From positions 1 to 44,676 of the forward strand of contig JACOSX010000131.1 of NCBI GenBank assembly GCA_016178625.1: DNA of 44,676 nucleotides. Reading direction: 5' to 3'. The notes beneath the pieces were generated by a model. That model was not told the DNA's origin, searched no databases, and worked only from the letters and a program-made list of their open reading frames with translations. The stretch is from Ignavibacteria bacterium. Lineage in GTDB: Bacteria; Bacteroidota; Ignavibacteria; UBA10030; SZUA-254. Position 1 is the first letter of the stretch, and every line of letters begins with the position of its first letter. A program made the translations under genes and the position numbers. Shown piece after piece: positions 12,047 to 44,676 of this stretch.

Positions 12047-14308
12047 TCAGTTGCGATGTTCGCGGTGATGTCCGCCGCCGCGGTGCCCACCTCCTTCACG
12101 ACCTCCATCCCGGCGCGGCGGGCGATTCTTGCGCTCTGCTTCACGCGCAGCTTCAGCATCCGCGTCATAGCCCGGCATCAGCGCCTTCCGACTGAGATTA
12201 TATCGTCCTTCTTCGTCTTTCTTGATGAGCTTGACTTCCACTTCATCGCCAACGTTGACCACGTCAGTGACCTTGTTGACTCGATTCATATCAAGATGAG
12301 AAATATGGACGAGGCCTTCTTTTCCAGGGAGAAATTCAACGAAAGCACCGAAGTCCATGATGCGTGTGACCTTCCCGTGGTATGTTTTCCCGACCTCAGG
12401 TATCTCGACGATCTTATTGATCATCTGCAGTGCCTTGTTACTTCCCTCTGCACTGACGGAAGCGATCACGACAGTACCGTCATCTTCGATGTTGATTTCC
12501 GCGCCCGTGTCCTTAACGATCTGCCGAATCATTTTTCCACCGGGTCCGATGACCGCGCCGATCATGTCGACCGGGATCTTCAAGGTAGTGAGACGTGGCG
12601 CGTATTGTGAAAGCTCTTTGCGTGGCTCGCGGAGGACTTCCGACATGCGGTCAAGAATGTGCAGCCGACCGTCGCGCGCTTGAGCTAATGCTTGCTCGAA
12701 TATTTCGAACGAAATCCCCTGGATCTTTATGTCCATCTGGAAACCGGTGATTCCGTCCTTTGTTCCGGCAACTTTGAAATCCATGTCACCAAGATGATCT
12801 TCATTGCCAAGGATGTCACTGAGGATTGCAACACTGTCTCCCTCTTTGATCAAGCCCATCGCAATTCCAGCGACTGGCTTCTTTAAGGGCACTCCAGCAT
12901 CCATCAACGCCAGTGAGCCGGCGCAGACGGTTGCCATCGAGGATGAACCGTTCGATTCAAGAATGTCGGAGACGATACGAATCGTGTACGGAAATTCCGC
13001 TTCAGGTGGAACGAGATTCTTGAGTGACCGCTCAGCTAAATTCCCGTGACCGATTTCTCTCCGACCAGTGAACCCAAGTCTTCCAACCTCGCCCACTGAG
13101 AACGGTGGAAAGTTGTAATGAAGCATGAACCGCTTGGTCGATTCGGGAAGTAGTCCGTCAAGGATTTGTTCATCCATTTTTGTCCCGAGGGTGGCTGTGG
13201 TCAGACTCTGAGTTTCACCACGGGTGAAGAGTGCCGAACCATGCGTTCGGGGCAAGACCCCGACTTCAGACGTAATCGAACGAATATCCCGGACTCCCCG
13301 TCCGTCGAGTCGTTTGCCAGACTCCAAGATCATCTTGCGCATTTCTTCATACTCGATGTCATGTAGAATTTCGTTGATGAACTTCGCTCGTGATTCAAGA
13401 AACAATTCAGGGGACTCAATCGTTTCTATTCCGGCGGCGGAAAGATTAAGACTACTCACTTCAGCTTTCAAGGCGTCGAACGTCATGGTCCGGATCGTTT
13501 CGTTCGCTTTGCTCCGTGCATCTTTCATGAGCACTTGCTGGGTCACCTTCCGGATCTCTTGACGCGCAATCTTGGAGACGACGTCTGCCAACAACTTCTT
13601 GAGAGGATTCGATGCGACATCACGTTTCGTTCTGCCGCATTCTTTCCGCAGATCGGATTGCAGATCGCACAGCTTGCGAATGTTTTCGTGAGCAAATTTC
13701 AATGCCCCAAGCATATCCTGCTCGGTGATTTCCTTGGCTTCGCCCTCAACCATAACGACGGAAGTCTTCGTACCCGCGACTGTGACATCCATATCGCTGG
13801 ATTCTAATTGGCTGAAGGTCGGGTTGATGATGAGCGTCCCGTCAACTCTTCCTACGCGGACCTCTGCTATTGGTCCATCGAAGGGGATATCAGATATCAT
13901 CAGGGCTGCCGACGCGCCAATCGCCCCGAGAATATCTCCATCGTTCTCCAAGTCAGACGAAAATACGGTCAACATCACCTGTGTCTCGTTTCGGAACAGT
14001 TCCGGGAACATGGGACGAATGGGTCGATCGATCAATCGCGATGAGAGTACTTCCTTTTCTGAAGGACGCCCTTCACGTTTCAAAAATCCGCCCGGAATCT
14101 TTCCGGCGGCGGCCGTTTTCTCCCGATATTCAACTTGCAGAGGAAAGAAATCTTTTCCTTCGTCCGCTTCCCGGCTCGCTACCACCGTGGCAAGAACCAT
14201 TGTATCTCCGTAGCGCACCATCACTGATCCATCGGCTTGCTTTGCTAACTTTCCTGTCTCGATGGACAATGTTCGTCCCCCAATCTCAATTTCCTTCTGT
14301 ACTACCAT
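12047..14308 (-). CDS. pnp: Polyribonucleotide nucleotidyltransferase (PNPase)
   Basis: 753 residues from the ATG at 14308. The open frame runs 36 codons further, but those residues do not look like PNPase and the family begins with the equivalent of VVQKEIEIGGRTLSIETGKLA. Two RNase PH domains flank a helical domain. The second carries the GHGNLAERSL segment and the phosphate-site region near ESNGSSSMA. A KH domain (IGAVIGPGGKMI) and an S1 domain (KVTRIMDFGAFVEF) follow. The Gly/Arg/His-rich tail is extra. The enzyme is a trimeric phosphorolytic 3'-5' exonuclease of the RNA degradosome. The rpsO-pnp order is classical. The stop codon is TGA. Confidence 0.96.
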   Translation of the reverse strand: MVVQKEIEIGGRTLSIETGKLAKQADGSVMVRYGDTMVLATVVASREADEGKDFFPLQVEYREKTAAAGKIPGGFLKREGRPSEKEVLSSRLIDRPIRPMFPELFRNETQVMLTVFSSDLENDGDILGAIGASAALMISDIPFDGPIAEVRVGRVDGTLIINPTFSQLESSDMDVTVAGTKTSVVMVEGEAKEITEQDMLGALKFAHENIRKLCDLQSDLRKECGRTKRDVASNPLKKLLADVVSKIARQEIRKVTQQVLMKDARSKANETIRTMTFDALKAEVSSLNLSAAGIETIESPELFLESRAKFINEILHDIEYEEMRKMILESGKRLDGRGVRDIRSITSEVGVLPRTHGSALFTRGETQSLTTATLGTKMDEQILDGLLPESTKRFMLHYNFPPFSVGEVGRLGFTGRREIGHGNLAERSLKNLVPPEAEFPYTIRIVSDILESNGSSSMATVCAGSLALMDAGVPLKKPVAGIAMGLIKEGDSVAILSDILGNEDHLGDMDFKVAGTKDGITGFQMDIKIQGISFEIFEQALAQARDGRLHILDRMSEVLREPRKELSQYAPRLTTLKIPVDMIGAVIGPGGKMIRQIVKDTGAEINIEDDGTVVIASVSAEGSNKALQMINKIVEIPEVGKTYHGKVTRIMDFGAFVEFLPGKEGLVHISHLDMNRVNKVTDVVNVGDEVEVKLIKKDEEGRYNLSRKALMPGYDADAEAAREAERKNRPPRRDGGREGGGHRGGGHHREHRN

Positions 14309-14366
14309 GTGTGTATCTGCTTTCTTCTGATTTCGTTCATTAAACACCTGCCTCATGCAGCGTGTA

Positions 14367-35155: not shown

Positions 35156-37996
35156 CTACTTGAGTAGCAGCATTTTCTTGAGGCTGACAAATGTTCGGCC
35201 CGATATGCCTTCATCCGGATCCCCAACTCCCTCTGCGACGAGACGATAGAAGTACACGCCAGAGGCAAGAGTGGCAGCGTCGAATTCAACGTCTTGTCTT
35301 CCATCATCCATTGATTCGTGATCGAGAAGTGTTGCCACCTCTTGACCGAGTAGATTAAAGACTTTCAGCGTAACAATTGCAGGATCGGGAAGCTCGAACT
35401 GAATTGTTGTCGTAGGATTGAATGGGTTCGGATAATTTTGGTCAAGACGATATTCCATCGGCTCAATCACTGTCCAGGCCTGCTGAAGAGGTGGAACCGT
35501 TGGTTCGATTGCACCGGGATTCGCCCGGAGGAACGGCACATCCTTCAAGGCTCGTACGCCCGTTAAACGAATCTTTTCACAACTCCAGTGGAATGTATCA
35601 ATTGGTCCGCTAAAGGATTCATTGATCTTCTTAAGAACTTTGTAATATTCCTCGGGAGTTGCAACGATGCCCTGTGAATTTGTACTGCATCCCATAAAGA
35701 ATTGTACCGCATCCGTTATCCGCTCCAAATCTTTCCCATCAAACGTTGGGTTGGTCGGATCAGTTTGATCTATATGATTATCATAGATCAATCCACGCCA
35801 ACCTCTTGGGAATTTGTCAAAAGTGCTCGCTATGATATTCAGATAGAAGGTCAATGCTTCGGCGAAAAGTTTATTGTTCATCTTTGTCGGTGGCAGACCA
35901 TTCTGTCGCTTTGTTATCGGTTTGCCGTTGTCCAAGGAGTCCAAGCAACTGGCGGTGCCGGTATGCAAGATACCTTTTGCGTTCAAGGTCTTCACAAGCT
36001 CTTTACAGTTCTTGATGACAACGGAATGGGGATCTATACCGACCAGAATTCCAAAAACCTGTTGCGGCTCTAAATCTTGACAGATATTCAAGAGATTCGG
36101 CATCGGTAACCGCGGCATATTAAGCCTGAAATCCTGATCCCCAATCTTGACAGTCGTTGTCTTCGGCGTGGTTGCCCACACCAATGTGACTTTCACTTGC
36201 TTCCCTTTGAATCCTCGCCCATCGACCTGGAATATCCTCCCACTGTCAATGGACGATCCGGGTGTGAACGTGACCTCTTTCAGACTATCCCATGAGAACA
36301 CCTGCAAGAGTTTTGTCGAGTCACTATAGATTTTGCCTCGAGTGAACATGGAAAACTTCAATGTCACCGCATTGGCTTTCCTCGGTGCTTGAATCAAAAA
36401 TTTAAAATCTACTTTATCCGGCTTGCATTTGATGGGTTTCAGCTTTCCTTTCGCATCTGTCGCAGTCGCCCATTCGAGCATCGCTGCAGTCCGATACTTA
36501 ACCGTATCCTCCGCGGCACCATTCAGCCAGACCGCCGTTGTGTCCTCACCGCCTTGAGTAACAAAGGTCATCACACCTGATGGAGGAGAACTGATCGCAT
36601 ATCCGGATGGGACATCCTCCGTCAATTGGTAGGTGTCTATCGGAAGCTGATCGAAACACACAAGACCGCTCGTGTCGGTCATGCCCGAAAAGGTGTTGCT
36701 GGTTCCCGTAAGATGGAACTTCACACCCGCCATCGGCACCTCTCCTGAATCGAGCTGTTGGTTATGATTTGCATCGAAGTATTTCTTCACACAAATTCTG
36801 CTGGTGATCTCATGGTAACCGAAATCAGCTCCCAGATATTTCTGACCTGTATTCAACGTGAGATCAAGCGGTTCAGTACCGCTCGACAATGCAAACGCTC
36901 CCGGTAGTGTACTTTCATCAACATCGATACGATACAATCCTCCGGGGAGATCGTCAAAAGTATAGTTACCGTTTGCATCGGTCGTCGCAGGCGAGTAAAT
37001 CACATCATCACCATTTCCCAATATCCCATCGTTTCCCGCCTCTTGTAGATTTACCGTAACACCCGCAAAGCCCGGTTCACCCGGATCAAATGAACCACTG
37101 CTATCAAGATCATTCCAGACAAGGTCGCCAATGCCGCCACCACGAAAGACAGTGAACGAATCCGTACTCGTGCCGGTACCTGCAGAATTTGTCACACTGA
37201 TCTTTCCGGTTGTTGCGCCTCTCGGCACTTTCGCATCGATCTCCGTCGATGAGTTGATAACAAATGGTGCACTCGTCCCGTTAAACTTCACACCTGTAGC
37301 ACCAGTAAAATTCATGCCCGTGATCATGACCATCTTCCCAATTGTATCGGCAGTCGGAGTGAAACCGGTGATAAATGGTACAACCACAAAATTACTTGCG
37401 CTCGTTCCAGTTCCTCCCTGATTTGTGACAGAGATCGGTCCCGTAGTCGCACCATTCGGAACCGTTGCTCGTATTTGTACAGTTGACATCACGAGAAATG
37501 ACGCTGCTTCAGTGCCATTGAATTTTACTGAAGACGCTCCTGTAAAATTTGCACCGAAGATGTTGACCAACGCTCCGGGAGCGCCTCCTGTTGGTGCGAA
37601 GCTTGTTATCCGAGGTGAGACAGTGAAGGTACCTGAGCTGGTTCCCACTCCACCGAGTGAGTTGGTCATGCTGATCTGCCCCGTGAGCCCATCGGGAGGA
37701 ACAGTGGCTCTCACCTGCATATCTGAATCAATGATGAAGGAGGCTGCCGCACCTCCGAACCGAGTGCTCACAACATCGGAAAAACCTGAGCCTGTAATCG
37801 TCACGACGGTTCCCGGCGAACCGGACGTCGGATTGAAGTTTGCGATTGTCGGCCCAGCGGCTGTTGCCATGCTCACAGAGAAGGCTGCCGCCGAGAGATC
37901 ATAGGGCGACTTCAGTCCTGTATTTGCTGCGAAGGTGGAAGTAAAAAAAGAGAACGTCAGGGTGCAAAAAAGAAGAACGATGTACCGAAATTTCAT
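35156..37996 (-). CDS. Secreted IPT/TIG and SdrD-B-like protein with C-terminal type IX-type sorting domain
   Basis: 946 residues. Signal peptide 1-24. Three IPT/TIG domains (about 48-125, 126-206, 207-283) repeat a GSPGTVVTITGSGF pattern. Two SdrD-B/prealbumin-like modules follow (about 287-395 and 396-495), starting with GIGDLVWNDLDSSGSFDPGE and a second with DANHNQQLDSGE, both calcium-binding-type Asp loops. The middle part (500-865) is unrecognised. The C-terminal ~80 residues begin LDQNYPNPFNPTTTIQFEL and end in KMLLLK, the sorting domain of secreted surface proteins in Ignavibacteria, Kryptonia and relatives. The protein is probably exported and attached to the cell surface. Its binding partner is unknown. 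Confidence 0.9.
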   Translation of the reverse strand: MKFRYIVLLFCTLTFSFFTSTFAANTGLKSPYDLSAAAFSVSMATAAGPTIANFNPTSGSPGTVVTITGSGFSDVVSTRFGGAAASFIIDSDMQVRATVPPDGLTGQISMTNSLGGVGTSSGTFTVSPRITSFAPTGGAPGALVNIFGANFTGASSVKFNGTEAASFLVMSTVQIRATVPNGATTGPISVTNQGGTGTSASNFVVVPFITGFTPTADTIGKMVMITGMNFTGATGVKFNGTSAPFVINSSTEIDAKVPRGATTGKISVTNSAGTGTSTDSFTVFRGGGIGDLVWNDLDSSGSFDPGEPGFAGVTVNLQEAGNDGILGNGDDVIYSPATTDANGNYTFDDLPGGLYRIDVDESTLPGAFALSSGTEPLDLTLNTGQKYLGADFGYHEITSRICVKKYFDANHNQQLDSGEVPMAGVKFHLTGTSNTFSGMTDTSGLVCFDQLPIDTYQLTEDVPSGYAISSPPSGVMTFVTQGGEDTTAVWLNGAAEDTVKYRTAAMLEWATATDAKGKLKPIKCKPDKVDFKFLIQAPRKANAVTLKFSMFTRGKIYSDSTKLLQVFSWDSLKEVTFTPGSSIDSGRIFQVDGRGFKGKQVKVTLVWATTPKTTTVKIGDQDFRLNMPRLPMPNLLNICQDLEPQQVFGILVGIDPHSVVIKNCKELVKTLNAKGILHTGTASCLDSLDNGKPITKRQNGLPPTKMNNKLFAEALTFYLNIIASTFDKFPRGWRGLIYDNHIDQTDPTNPTFDGKDLERITDAVQFFMGCSTNSQGIVATPEEYYKVLKKINESFSGPIDTFHWSCEKIRLTGVRALKDVPFLRANPGAIEPTVPPLQQAWTVIEPMEYRLDQNYPNPFNPTTTIQFELPDPAIVTLKVFNLLGQEVATLLDHESMDDGRQDVEFDAATLASGVYFYRLVAEGVGDPDEGISGRTFVSLKKMLLLK

Positions 37997-38182: not shown

Positions 38183-38278
38183 ATGGTCATGCAAGCTGCC
38201 TGGAACTACCTCGATCCTGAGGAAATGAAATTGGTCAAGAATCAAGCTGAGGAGATCAAGAAGAAAAAGGTGTACTGA
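38183..38278 (+). CDS. Possible small protein of 31 residues
   Basis: The ATG at 38183 follows AGGGA closely. The product is MVMQAAWNYLDPEE followed by a charged helix ending in KKKKVY. A perfect 11-bp hairpin begins 12 bases after its TGA, so it has a gene-like ending. No family was recognised; it might also be the tail of a deleted gene. Confidence 0.35.
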   Translation: MVMQAAWNYLDPEEMKLVKNQAEEIKKKKVY

Positions 38279-38290
38279 CTCTATTTAAAT

Positions 38291-38324
38291 AACGGGGAGT
38301 AACCTCCGATAGATACTCCCCGTT
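38291..38324 (+). terminator. Hairpin after the 31-residue ORF
   Basis: AACGGGGAGTA and TACTCCCCGTT pair perfectly over 11 bp around a 12-base loop. The following bases (GTTCGATAAAAC) lack a T-run, so termination would be weak or factor-assisted. Confidence 0.45.
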
Positions 38325-38395
38325 GTTCGATAAAACTGAAACGGGTAAAACGTGGGAGTTGACAAAATAAATCTTACCCGATCACGAAAAATATC

Positions 38396-38448: not shown

Positions 38449-38508
38449 ATGCGAATTCTCACTCCCGTTATTCCCGTTGTGATTTTCATCTGTGTGGTGC
38501 TGGGCTGA
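38449..38508 (+). other. Signal-peptide-like mini-ORF, in frame with the next gene
   Basis: Nineteen codons, MRILTPVIPVVIFICVVLG, then TGA at 38506-38508. The peptide has the basic-then-hydrophobic pattern of a signal sequence. The stop is in frame with the gene at 38533, which has its own signal peptide. It may be the remains of an interrupted 5' end or a leader peptide. Confidence 0.3.
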
Positions 38509-38532
38509 TTGCTGGGGACACTTGAGCAAAGA

Positions 38533-39144
38533 ATGCTGACAACCAGTACATTACAGAGGAAAACATTGTTATTCACGATCCTTTTGTTGACACTCTTGAT
38601 CTCAGAAAGGACGCGGGCCCAAGCGGACGCAACATTGGGGATTTACTTTCCTCTCGAGCTTGGGAATGAGTGGATTTACGACGGACACGAGACAATCCGC
38701 GTGGATACTGTGGTCTCCCGTCGTGGGCGGATGTATTACCATCTGACTGGCAGCCTACCGGTGTGGGTGAAGTACCATGGACGATACCGGAGTGATTACC
38801 TGCTCAGGAATGATGAGAAAGGAAACGTCTACGCTTTGGTTGGTGACGAAGAGAGACCCCTCATGCTCTTTGACCAGCGGGAAATATCGACTGAGAACTA
38901 CTTCGGCTGGGAGGATGTCCTGCTAGAGGCGGTGGTCGAACGGCCGCGAGGCAAGTTCCCTTTCAGGGACCGATTCTGCCCCGATGGTGTCGTTGTGGAA
39001 TATAATAGTCCTGCACAACGGGGAAAGACATGGGTATTCTGCAAAGATGTAGGACTCGTTTGGTTTGAAGAGTACGATCATGGCAGGTATAAGCGTTTCA
39101 CCCTGGCGTCGTATAAAGTGAAGAGAAAGGGTGAAAGAAAATGA
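38533..39144 (+). CDS. Putative exported protein with GNxW domain
   Basis: 203 residues from ATG 38533. The signal peptide is hydrophobic LLFTILLLTLLIS with cleavage near RAQA. The mature part starts with IYFPLELGNEWIYDGHETIRVD, a pattern repeated in the lipoprotein at 40054. Aromatic-rich strands and one CxnC pair (FCPD and VFCKD) suggest a secreted beta-sandwich. Family and function are unknown. The ATG has a weak ribosome-binding site. A TTG further upstream is less likely because it would put extra residues before the signal peptide. Confidence 0.7.
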   Translation: MLTTSTLQRKTLLFTILLLTLLISERTRAQADATLGIYFPLELGNEWIYDGHETIRVDTVVSRRGRMYYHLTGSLPVWVKYHGRYRSDYLLRNDEKGNVYALVGDEERPLMLFDQREISTENYFGWEDVLLEAVVERPRGKFPFRDRFCPDGVVVEYNSPAQRGKTWVFCKDVGLVWFEEYDHGRYKRFTLASYKVKRKGERK

Positions 39145-39546
39145 CCATGCAAGTAAAAGCAACATACATAATCTTTCTTCTTAGAAGGTTCTCTGCAACT
39201 TGCAATTGGAGATAAGAGAGATAAGCGCACTGTGTCGGCACCCAGACAATAACTGGATCAAAGCTCCCACCAAGTTGTTTGTATTGGTGCAGCGAGTTGG
39301 CAGCGAGAATTCACGACACCAACATATTTTGCAAACCCGTTCATTCAAAATCGAAGTAACGTCCTCGCGGTAGGGCAGTAGAATTTAGTTTACCACTATA
39401 ACAATATCGACAGGAAACAGATCACGATCACTCTCCTGAATCATATGGTCGATCCTCGTGCGTGATTTTGGTGTGTGAACCGATGGGAACGAGGTGCTTA
39501 TCTCTGACACCGAAAATGGCATCATGTACCACGGAAGGTAAATGGC
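39145..39546. other. Gene-free stretch of about 400 bases
   Basis: No convincing frame, promoter, hairpin with T-tail or RNA gene was seen. The only signal is GGAAGG 8 bases before the ATG at 39547, which serves the next gene. Confidence 0.5.
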
Positions 39547-39726
39547 ATGTTACATGGTAACATATATGATTGCATTCTGAAATCTTGTGCATCAAGATTC
39601 TTTTCAATCTCTGTCTTGCTACTTGGCATTTATGTTTTGCTTATATCGGCTGGATGCGGGTACACACTCATTAGGAAAGATACTGCAGCGAAATATACCG
39701 AACAGGATGTGTTACCCTCCGAGTAA
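39547..39726 (+). pseudogene. 5' part of a lipoprotein gene, ended by an in-frame TAA
   Basis: 59 codons from the ATG at 39547, with GGAAGG eight bases upstream. The hydrophobic stretch SISVLLLGIYVLLISAGC holds a good lipobox (ISAGC, Cys codon 39655-39657). The frame ends with TAA at 39724-39726 but continues open, in the same frame, through AAA TTG AAC ATG into the next feature. The two together would make a 166-residue lipoprotein. Confidence 0.6.
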
Positions 39727-39729
39727 AAA

Positions 39730-40047
39730 TTGAACATGCTCTGTTCCACTTGGAGAGGAGTCATAGTCACTCGGGATAACGGACAGACTGTGTCCACGGA
39801 TACCGTTTTAGCGTTCACAATTAATCGGGATGGAACTTGGTCGTTGAAAAATCAACTTGGCGTCTTTACAGGACAATGGTCATTCAGGGATGAAAAACCA
39901 GGGTTCTATTTTGCCCTACACTGTGATACCCCAAAGCCAGAATTTAACAAATACTTTGTCGGATATTTCAGAGACGGGGGTTTGGATCTTCACTCTACAC
40001 ACGAAGTACCCCATACGATCGATGTTAAATGGAAGTTAAAACGATAA
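39730..40047 (+). CDS. 3' part of the interrupted lipoprotein, lipocalin-like
   Basis: 105 codons if read from the TTG at 39730 (or the ATG at 39736), but more likely the continuation of the lipoprotein that starts at 39547. STWRGVIVTRDNG, TINRDGTWSL and GQWSFRDEKPGFYF show the repeated Trp-Gly strands of lipocalin-like surface lipoproteins. Alone it would have no export signal and no ribosome-binding site. The next gene begins six bases after its stop. Confidence 0.6.
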   Translation: MNMLCSTWRGVIVTRDNGQTVSTDTVLAFTINRDGTWSLKNQLGVFTGQWSFRDEKPGFYFALHCDTPKPEFNKYFVGYFRDGGLDLHSTHEVPHTIDVKWKLKR

Positions 40048-40053
40048 TCACCA

Positions 40054-40698
40054 ATGATACTCTGCCGAAATAGCTTAGCCTTTTGGTTGATCGGCGGATT
40101 AATTTTCGCTGGAAATTGTAGTCGAGAATCGAATCCGGTCGGCAACATAGACTGTATACGTGACAATTCAGACGGTCTCACACCGTTCAAGGTCGGCAAC
40201 AAATGGATCATTCGCTTCTATTATTACGATACCTCTGGTTCAGTAATTACAACATTCCTCGATTCATTTGTAGTGAGGAGAGATACCATAATCGGTAAAG
40301 AGAGGTGGTATAAGATTCCCGGATTAAAACCGGCTGATCTGGATACTCGTGACTGGTACACAAACAGAAGCGACGGTATATGGGTGCGACGAAGGTATTA
40401 TGATTCGAGCATCACGTATCTGACATTCAAGTTTCCGACAATGGAGGGAGATTCTTGGGGGAATCAGATTCATGATTCAACAAGAACAGTGTCGACGAAT
40501 GAAGTGATCGAGACTCCTTCGGGGATAGATACGTGCATTCACTATGAAGATCACTACCAATTCTCCCAGTTAGGCGATTTCCATTATTTCATCGCACCGC
40601 ACAAAGGCTGGGTTGTATTTGAAGAGTTTACGCAGACGAACAGCGGACGCCTTTACGTAGTCGCCAGAGATGTTCTCGTCAAAGCAATACTCAAATAA
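40054..40698 (+). CDS. Putative lipoprotein with GNxW domain
   Basis: 214 residues. The N-terminal hydrophobic segment ends in FAGNCSRESN, a lipobox-like site with an unusual Asn before the Cys, so lipidation is likely but not certain. The mature part begins LTPFKVGNKWIIRFYYYDTSG and has DSFVVRRDTIIGKERWYKIPG, parallel to the gene at 38533, which suggests paralogous domains. Function unknown. Confidence 0.7.
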   Translation: MILCRNSLAFWLIGGLIFAGNCSRESNPVGNIDCIRDNSDGLTPFKVGNKWIIRFYYYDTSGSVITTFLDSFVVRRDTIIGKERWYKIPGLKPADLDTRDWYTNRSDGIWVRRRYYDSSITYLTFKFPTMEGDSWGNQIHDSTRTVSTNEVIETPSGIDTCIHYEDHYQFSQLGDFHYFIAPHKGWVVFEEFTQTNSGRLYVVARDVLVKAILK

Positions 40699-40762
40699 GA
40701 AAATTGTAAAATGAATTCATAATCCACAAACAATTCCATATTCAAACCATTTATGAGGATGT

Positions 40763-42493
40763 ATGAAAAAGATCCAACTATTATTCACGCTCGCTTTTCT
40801 ATTACTAGCAAATGATCCAATGTGCCTGCATGCGCAATCGCGTTTTCGTGATGCCGCAGACTCACTCGACTGGTGGAACGCGCGCAGGTTTAACCTAAGC
40901 GGACTTCGTCCGTACACACGAAGAGAGATAGATTCAATGAAACAAGAATCTCTGCGGAAACAGTCTCCTCTTACTCCCGTGCCCCCAGACACAACGTTCT
41001 CTGTTGAGAACACAACCGGTAGTCAAGTCGAGGAAGCCAGATTCAAAAATGTCCGGACGGGAAATCAGTCGAGGTTTGAACCTATGATTGCCGTATCTCC
41101 TGTCAACGGTGATTATTTTTTCACAGCGTACGAAGGAGATCTCTGGACCAGTTGTCCGCAGGATAGCATTCCCGATGGCCCTCTCCGCGCTTTGGGTTCG
41201 TTCACAACAAACGGCGGTGCAACCTGGGTGGCTTCTGATATCCCCACATCATGGCTGAAGTACGCTGCGCAGGGCGATCCGGTCATTGCCTACGACGCCG
41301 ATGGGAATCTCTACTATGCATACCTCGATTTCAATAGTGCCTCCTCCCATGAGAATGCTATTATTGTCGGTCAATCAATTGATAACGGTGCGCACTGGTC
41401 GAACCAGTACATCGTGGCTGATAATGACACTCCCAGAACTACCACTGACAACGATAAGGAGTGGCTGGCCTGTGACGTTTCGAACAGCCAGTATCGGAAC
41501 AGCTTATACGTCTGCTGGACTTTGTTTTCCAACAACGAAGCAAATAAGCAGATCCTGTTTAGCTACAAGCGTCCTACAGTCGGCAACTTCACGACTCCAG
41601 TCCCGATTAGTTCCCAGGTTTCATCGCCCTTTCTTGTCCAGGGGTCCCAAGTTGTTGTTGGTAATGATGGCAAGGTGTATGTGTTCTGGTTGAAGCGGGA
41701 AGGGGTAGCGGACAAGGATTCGACGCTCACGGGGTCCTTTTGGATGAACGTGTCGATGGATGGCGGCAAAACCTTTAGCGGTGAGCGGCAATTGACCGAT
41801 CTTGGTACGGTGGTAGATGCGGAGTTACGCGTTGTAGGTGGGTTTTTCCAGCGCTCAAATAGTTTCCCTTCTGTTGCTGTGAGGCAAACGGGAGCGGGGA
41901 ACTACGAACTGTGCCTCGCGTGGTGCGACCTGCGAAATGGGAGGCCGCAAGTGCTTTTCTCGAAGTCGACCGACAATGGCGCACACTGGAATTTCCCCAC
42001 TCCAGTGACTCTCGGCGGAATGGAACAGTTTCTACCATCAATTACGGTGAACAGCCGAGGCATAATCAATGTTGCATACTTCGACCTCGTCGATAGATAT
42101 GGTAGTATCATTCAACTTTCTGTCGCTGAGTCGAAGGATGGCGGTGCCAGCTTTACGAACACTGCGACGCAAAATGGATCGTCCTCAGCATTGGGATTTA
42201 TTGGTGACTACATTGGTATCGCCTCGAACAATTACACGTATTGGGGCGTCTATCCAGCACTCCGCGGAGACTGCACAACAATTCCTTATCACAACGACAT
42301 CCTTGGTACGTATCGTGCGGTGAGCGCGATTGTGGAGAACGATCTTCCCCAAGTGTCTAATGATTCTATCCAATACGATGGTCGATGGCACCGGTCGTCC
42401 TATCCGACACCGTATCTTATTGCAGGGACCTTGAAGGTCATAAAAGCATCAAATCCCAAACAGGCGGGAGGCGAAACTTATTCGTTCAGCTGA
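40763..42493 (+). CDS. Secreted Asp-box (sialidase-like propeller) protein, 5' part ended by in-frame TGA
   Basis: 576 codons. Signal peptide about 1-24 (LLFTLAFLLLANDPMCLHAQS). Residues about 90-530 form a propeller with Asp-boxes of the SxDxGxxW/F type: SIDNGAHW, SMDGGKTF, STDNGAHW, SKDGGASF and a degenerate TTNGGATW. Such propellers occur in exported sialidases and binding proteins; catalytic sialidase arginines are not obvious, so function is open. The frame is closed by TGA at 42491-42493 within a repeat-type domain, but the same frame continues to the window edge. GAGG lies just before the ATG. The two parts should be seen as one gene. Confidence 0.85.
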   Translation: MKKIQLLFTLAFLLLANDPMCLHAQSRFRDAADSLDWWNARRFNLSGLRPYTRREIDSMKQESLRKQSPLTPVPPDTTFSVENTTGSQVEEARFKNVRTGNQSRFEPMIAVSPVNGDYFFTAYEGDLWTSCPQDSIPDGPLRALGSFTTNGGATWVASDIPTSWLKYAAQGDPVIAYDADGNLYYAYLDFNSASSHENAIIVGQSIDNGAHWSNQYIVADNDTPRTTTDNDKEWLACDVSNSQYRNSLYVCWTLFSNNEANKQILFSYKRPTVGNFTTPVPISSQVSSPFLVQGSQVVVGNDGKVYVFWLKREGVADKDSTLTGSFWMNVSMDGGKTFSGERQLTDLGTVVDAELRVVGGFFQRSNSFPSVAVRQTGAGNYELCLAWCDLRNGRPQVLFSKSTDNGAHWNFPTPVTLGGMEQFLPSITVNSRGIINVAYFDLVDRYGSIIQLSVAESKDGGASFTNTATQNGSSSALGFIGDYIGIASNNYTYWGVYPALRGDCTTIPYHNDILGTYRAVSAIVENDLPQVSNDSIQYDGRWHRSSYPTPYLIAGTLKVIKASNPKQAGGETYSFS

Positions 42494-44676
42494 TGGGTGG
42501 ATGAGAATAATGTTTTCATCAGCGGTACGCAAACGACAACGATACCGATTGAAAATCACACTTACACCGCGAAGTTCTCGACGAAGGTCGCCGTCACTCT
42601 GAAAAATGAATTCAAGGATCCAAACAATGTGATCAGTAACGGCGGGATCATCAATATCGACTTCGTTGACAAGAATACCGACTTGACCGGTGGAAAGTTT
42701 GACACGACGTATGGTAAAAATGAGCAGCACCGCTTCGAGGCAAAAGAGCAAACTCGTGGTGCGTATTACCGTGGATTTAACAATCTATCTAATCATGATG
42801 GGGGGTGGGTGTGCCCAGATAGTACAAGATATTTTCCCGTGATTTCAACTCCCGTTCAAGCAGGTACCTACACCGCCAAGTACCGGAACCGGTACGATGT
42901 CTCGGCAACAACAGCAACATATATCGAGGCAGGCAGCGGTGGCACTTACAATGTCAATGGAACGAATGTCGGAGCAATGTGGAGCGGAAACGTGTGGCAG
43001 TACGAGTCAATCACGCTCGAAGCCGTGCCGCCTTCAGGTTTCAACTTCCTCGTCTGGAGCGATGGGAATCAGACCAACCCCAGAACGCTTACCCCAACCG
43101 TTCACACCACGCTATACGCTGTCTTCAAACAACCGCTGAAATCGAACACCGCCACTGCCCTCTCCTCCAACGCCCAGCGCAAGCTTGCAAAGACCACACC
43201 ACCCACACCGAGCCAATCTTCCTTAGCGGCACCCTTCATGCTCTATGAAAGTAGCGGGAGCTCGTTCCTCAGTCGGAAGGACATCCTCGATGAATGGGAG
43301 CCGGAAATCTCCATAGGTGGTGTCCCAACTGCCACTTCCTTCTCACGCAATCCAACGCTTGTTCTCGATGATGTTGGTGTGAACGTTGGCGTCGTCTACG
43401 ACGAGGTCAACACGACCACGTCAACCCACACGATCCAGTACGACGCGTATGATGGTTCTACCGGATCGCCCCCTCTTTTTCCAATCCTCACCATTGACCA
43501 AATGAACGGATCGAGCGATTACCAGCCGATGACTTCCGCTGCCTGGACGCCACATGGGAACACCAAACCCTCGATGTTCTCTGCTACTTGGAGAAAGGAT
43601 AACAGTCTTTACTTTGGCTTGGGATCGTGGGTGAACGGTTTCCCATTTCAACAATTGAGTTGGTCAACCCCAATCGATCTGAACACAGTGGCACCCGGCG
43701 CTTTCAACGGTGCAACCAATCCAGCCATGCTGACGGCCATTTATCCACCGGCAACCACTCAAGTCCCTCAGTTCTACGTCGTGTGGGAAGATCCGAACCC
43801 TACAACAGGCGGCATAAAACTGATTAGAGGCGGCTATAACAATAGTACGTGGCCTCCGCAAGCATCGATCGTGGGATGGAGTCCGGGGCAGACTATTGCG
43901 GCCAACACTCCCACGGAAACGAACAGCAAGCCAACTATTGCAATCGATGGATCCACTAACGTCATGATCGCTTGGGAATACCGTAACACATCCAATGCAT
44001 CGAACCCAATCGGCGAGATCCGCGCACGTCTGTTTCAACCTGCTGATATTCTCGGACCGATGCAGTCGGTTGTAAGCGGCTCCGGCAGCTCGCTACCTTC
44101 AGTACCTTCTATTGCCGATTACCGGAACAGCACATCGAAACAGAATGACTTTACACTCGTCTGGTACACTAATCAAGGAACAGCAGTTGCTCATTACACA
44201 GGTGGAGGATGGGGAATGCCCTACTATGTCGATCCTAACGGGCGAAGCGTTAGCATACAGTCCTCTCTGAACGGATCCGAGGACACTCGCTCTATAGTCT
44301 ACATCGGTTCCTCCGGTCCACCGTACACGATCAACACAAAACTTATCCCGCCACCGACAACACTGTCAAGCGCTGTGACCATCGGTTGGAACATGACGAG
44401 CGTGCCCGCGGGCATGTACAACCTCGGGTTCTGGAACGTCTACCCCACGCATGTGCCGGGCAGTTACGCATTCAGCGCTCACGGTGGGAACTACGTCGAA
44501 GAAGACCCCCTCACGATCCGATCGGGCTACTGGGTGAAGTTCGTCAAAGACACGACAGCCAATTACACCGGTGGTCCGCTGGATAAGTTAACGATCAATC
44601 TCGCAGCCGGTTGGAACATGGTCGGGACGATCTCCAATCTTGTTCAGACCTCCGGCGTCTCGACGAGTCCTGCGGG
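42494..44676 (+). CDS. Continuation of the Asp-box protein after the TGA, open at the window edge
   Basis: 727 codons without a stop, in frame with 40763-42493. It starts with WVDENNVFISGTQ, completing the InlB-like repeat cut by the stop. A second, intact copy lies near 43000-43130 (FNFLVWSDGNQTNPRTLTP, then YAVFK). The remainder includes strand-rich repeats (for example WYTNQGTAVAHYTGGGWG). Near the edge two GWNM segments (GWNMTSVPAG, AGWNMVGTIS) resemble domains that precede type IX sorting domains in Ignavibacteria; such a tail is probably just outside. It has no ribosome-binding site of its own and no signal peptide, so it is not an independent gene. Confidence 0.75.
42500..42520 (+). 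other. Stem-loop directly after the in-frame TGA
   Basis: GATGAGAA and TTTTCATC pair over 8 bp (one G-U) around the loop TAATG, starting six bases after the TGA. It lies where readthrough-stimulating structures are found. The loop begins UA and the distance is short, which does not match the bacterial SECIS rule. Confidence 0.5.

Follow-up and report, generated by a model that had tools for sequence, protein, structure and literature searches.

In-frame stops in secreted-protein genes of an uncultured Ignavibacteria bacterium: probable gene breakage or consensus error

Genes at the locus

The window, that is, the whole stretch of DNA analysed here, is the entire contig C116 (44,676 bases) of an uncultured Ignavibacteria metagenome-assembled genome, which amounts to 3.36 Mb in 177 contigs and is 97% complete and 0.9% contaminated. 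The features of the window are listed in Table 1. None of the genomes compared with it was marked as belonging to the same genus.

Table 1 Positions of the genes, gene parts and in-frame stops discussed in the text
Feature	Position	Strand	Remarks
PNPase frame	12047-14314		Closest to Ignavibacteria/Bacteroidota metagenome genomes, up to 79% identity
Intact small exported protein	38533-39144	+	Own leader; TGA 38506 lies upstream and does not interrupt it
Probable 5' part, small lipoprotein	39547-39723	+	Leader with lipobox-like LISAGC
In-frame TAA	39724-39726	+	Between lipoprotein leader and probable domain
Probable 3' part, lipoprotein	39730-40047	+	105 residues, predicted beta-barrel
Intact conserved exported protein	40054-40698	+	Between the two broken frames; no stops
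5' part, interrupted large secreted protein	40763-42490	+	Hydrophobic leader and BNR propeller (PF13088, 5e-10)
In-frame TGA	42491-42493	+	Within the first of three B-repeat-like modules
3' part, same large protein	42494-44674	+	Open to contig end; without leader

The large gene consists of a single frame that starts at ATG 40763, is closed after 576 codons by TGA 42491 and then stays open for 727 codons until the contig end. This frame contained no stop in the 2,178 bases from 42497, where the other five frames contained 13-39. It was also the best of the six frames on both sides of the TGA in a dicodon model, for which the training set was the same window-genome sequences that were later scored. 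The Sec leader of the 5' part was recognized by its hydrophobic start (hydropathy only), and the first ATG of the 3' part lies 161 codons in. Differences at the first, second and third codon positions were 0.47, 0.42 and 0.74 between the 5' part and its relative in G004, and 0.44, 0.35 and 0.69 between the 3' part and that in G001. The third-position excess on both sides thus indicated long-term coding constraint. Ka/Ks was not measurable because the synonymous sites were saturated, dS being saturated or undefined in every pair compared. No second copy of the TGA 42491 junction was found in the window genome, and a further scan of genome contigs with the 3' part as the query gave no match.

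Relatives of the large protein

The same genome carries a paralogue on contig C15 whose single uninterrupted frame of 1,293 codons matched both parts, with identities of 30% to the 5' part and 39% to the 3' part. Elsewhere, intact related frames of 1,559 (G001), 1,609 (G011) and 1,179 (G014) codons were identified. The paralogue and these relatives carry both parts or the 3' modules; none is a close orthologue, and no true orthologue across TGA 42491 was available because all the compared genomes lie outside the genus. A type IX sorting tail ends three of the four relatives scanned (one below the cut-off), and the fourth, a subtilase-type protein, is without one. With one long frame, coding sequence on both sides of the stop, and an intact paralogue and relatives, TGA 42491 is a convincing interruption that is real in the sequence as given.

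The C-terminal region of the 3' part was found behind differing N-terminal domains among the relatives, and it is thus a shuffled module. This region, of about 100 residues (44330-44676, GWNMTSVPAG...GWNMVGTISN), occurs in many proteins across nearly all genomes of the same family. The window contig stops within it, as do several of the matching contigs. Adjoining the broken genes on the minus strand, 35156-37996 encodes an intact secreted protein of 946 residues with TIG, SdrD-like and type IX sorting domains.

B-repeat-like modules at the stop

By reading of the sequence, TGA 42491 would fall within the first of three tandem B-repeat-like modules. The Divergent InlB B-repeat profile (PF18998, Flg_new_2) scored 17.0 bits (E 0.0061) against a cut-off of 23.6 on the first module with both sides joined, whereas neither side alone was matched and the middle module gave no match. 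We also built a profile from ten intact modules, which were kept from 17 stretches found by motif after five unrelated ones and two shifted duplicates were dropped. It placed the stop just before a conserved Trp, at a position that is variable among the relatives. Its score at the stop was low (5.1 bits) and was reached by 13 of 1000 shuffles, and fold prediction of the junction was of low confidence around the TGA. The modules resemble InlB B-repeats in their aromatic/Trp core and in their tandem arrangement before a C-terminal propeller-like region. They differ in that all window matches lie under the curated cut-off and in that the middle module matches neither Pfam nor our own profile.

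Frames around TAA 39724 and TGA 38506

The small frames upstream comprise a leader fragment of 59 residues with the motif LISAGC, which we read as a lipobox, followed by TAA 39724, three bases, and the frame of the probable 3' part in the same phase. A model of the read-through product showed the leader, a linker and eight strands with modest confidence (mean pLDDT 62); it resembled small beta-barrels, none of the matches reaching E 0.001. The 97 other genomes searched within the order gave no homologue of the lipoprotein. The only match in a relative, in G005, was taken as chance, as it is antisense to another gene. From the sequence, TAA 39724 plausibly splits one lipoprotein gene, although this split is unproven. 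The 39145-39546 interval, about 400 bases without convincing coding between two exported-protein genes, is a possible relic on either strand.

TGA 38506 closes an ATG frame of only 19 codons, and the next gene has a hydrophobic leader from ATG 38533. Since that gene has its own start and leader, TGA 38506 is no evidence of an interruption. In the 40 codons past this TGA, the dicodon score was -0.08 in frame and 0.25 in another frame. Further upstream on the plus strand, 38183-38327 holds a 31-codon frame (MVMQAAWNYLDPEE...) followed by a G-rich inverted repeat (38288-38327), possibly the remaining end of a gene since lost, with its terminator.

A sequence-only reading of this stretch had described three interrupted secreted-protein frames. 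TGA 42491 bears this out and TAA 39724 is in frame with a plausible split, whereas the interruption at TGA 38506 proved spurious.

Stops in the rest of the genome

As a control, we scanned 20 stretches (320,319 bases) of the window genome for stops flanked on each side by at least 50 open codons and by sequence that is coding-like according to the dicodon filter. A looser dicodon scan had flagged far too many stops and was dropped in favour of this stricter one. The sample contained 546 stops with open flanks of this length, 24 of which passed the coding filter; 19 of these 24 had an ATG within 16 codons, as in adjacent genes. Two of the remaining five (L157 7428 and L158 10345) looked like known gene starts, which we take to be those of a LeuA-like and a FolC-like gene, respectively, and the other three separated shorter fragments (123/187, 51/84 and 181/52 codons). 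In the window, 5 of 60 stops passed, namely TGA 42491 and four ordinary gene starts; TGA 38506 and TAA 39724 both failed, the latter on its upstream side. In the window and the 320-kb sample together, TGA 42491 is the only such stop at which both fragments exceed 500 codons without a nearby ATG. Hence, there was no sign of a genome-wide code change or of a generally poor consensus.

Conservation of the neighbourhood

The gene at 40054-40698 has intact relatives with identities of 69% (G010) and 68% (G011). Its Ka/Ks between the window and G010 was 0.065, a value that rests on a dS of 3.7 and is not trusted. In G011, its relative is followed by one other lipoprotein-like gene and then by an intact protein of 1,599 residues of the same C-terminal family. 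The intact conserved gene and this gene order indicate that the neighbourhood is kept and not wholly decaying. The interrupted genes are therefore not consecutive, as had been claimed, and the idea of a decaying surface-protein cluster is not supported: TGA 38506 drops out as an interruption, and TAA 39724 and TGA 42491 are separated by a gene that is both intact and conserved.

At the opposite contig end, a PAS-domain sensor-kinase frame on the minus strand (77-1978) ends right after HDFNNLLG, without a kinase domain. The last 76 contig bases continue it in no frame, so there is a break either in the gene or at the contig end. The earlier statement that all housekeeping genes are intact holds by inspection, except that this frame stops inside a kinase motif.

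Discussion

Here, we propose that TGA 42491 is, with high probability, one recent nonsense change in a gene that encodes a large secreted protein of modular build, present either as a pseudogene allele of the sampled population or as a consensus error. The gene resembles bacterial nonsense pseudogenes in that a single in-frame stop interrupts a long frame under constraint, with coding sequence before and behind it, and it shows no difference in kind from them; the status of a true allele is putative here. Decay or sequence error, the candidates of the sequence-only reading, are the right ones in the case of TGA 42491, and probably also in that of TAA 39724.

The large protein would be modular, long-constrained and of the type that type IX systems export. 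It is similar to type IX substrates (Por_Secre_tail, PF18962) in its leader, BNR propeller and repeat modules, and its relatives end in a sorting tail as such substrates do; the window frame differs in that it is cut by the TGA and in that the contig ends before any sorting tail. Export by the type IX system depends on a Sec leader together with a sorting domain at the C terminus (PMC12618676). TGA 42491 would end translation inside the first B-repeat module. Because the stop parts the leader from the expected sorting domain, which would lie beyond the contig end, the 5' product would reach the periplasm and remain there without that domain, and export of the 3' part would fail.

The consensus-error branch of this explanation, in which low coverage or strain mixing made one or both stops and the living population is intact, is a substantial minority possibility. 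The genome was assembled from a metagenome into 177 contigs, the large gene itself runs off the end of its contig, the sensor-kinase frame at the opposite end of that contig is also cut, and the frame behind TGA 42491 bears no further decay, all of which are consistent with such an error. However, errors are not common in this genome, as a comparable stop is absent from 320 kb of it, and no repeat collapse was seen in the last 350 bases, which have no second genome copy.

For TAA 39724, the probable explanation is another event of this ordinary kind, in the gene of a small lipoprotein. Less probably, this stop lies between two genuine small genes, one for a short lipopeptide and one for a protein of 103-105 residues that is cytoplasmic or exported in another way. 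This alternative is favoured by the ATG three codons and the TTG one codon past the stop, by a 5' side that is not convincingly coding and by the lack of a homologue for either part of 39547-40047 in our searches. It is opposed by the arrangement of the two parts in the same frame only three bases apart, and a leader with a lipobox before a leaderless barrel-like domain fits one lipoprotein.

Pseudogenes are reported to make up 1-5% of gene-like sequences in most prokaryotes (PMC522871). Two broken genes in about five exceed the mean expected from this background, at a site picked after the fact. Two stops this close, somewhat above the low background rate, speak to that extent against ordinary breakage as the best explanation.

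A programmed event in the large protein, such as selenocysteine insertion, suppression, leaky read-through or phase-variable silencing, is very unlikely. TGA is the stop most often recoded and the frame after TGA 42491 is well kept, as such an event would have it. Nevertheless, TGA is frequent as a stop in the window, closing 11 of its 27 open segments of at least 200 codons (all frames counted), and the relatives have no stop at this place. The window genome gave no match to selA, in a search whose control passed the cut-off in only 1 of 14 genomes, and a tRNA-Sec search, which was unspecific and positive in 14 of 14 controls, gave nothing over the cut-off. The eight tRNA loci examined had ordinary anticodons, none of them stop-reading. 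A selenoprotein calls for selenocysteine machinery in the genome and a phase-variable gene for a slippage repeat or an invertible segment at the switch, and our searches gave neither. Slippage in a repeat does not yield a stop that leaves the frame unshifted. The earlier suggestion of phase-variation-like silencing is thus not supported: no slippage repeats or inverted arms were found at either stop, the only tandem repeat found was a 14-nt, two-copy array (43398-43425), and the frame is unshifted. Least credible of all is a leaky or regulated stop at TGA 42491 that would yield two forms, one periplasmic and one a read-through surface form with the sorting domain.

A programmed switch is unneeded to explain the stops, which look like an ordinary, already known kind of gene breakage or consensus error and not like a new mechanism. 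Their significance is small outside annotation, where automatic annotation would list two unrelated hypothetical proteins for one large secreted protein. If the stop is real, it would add one more case of turnover among the surface-protein genes of an uncultured lineage.
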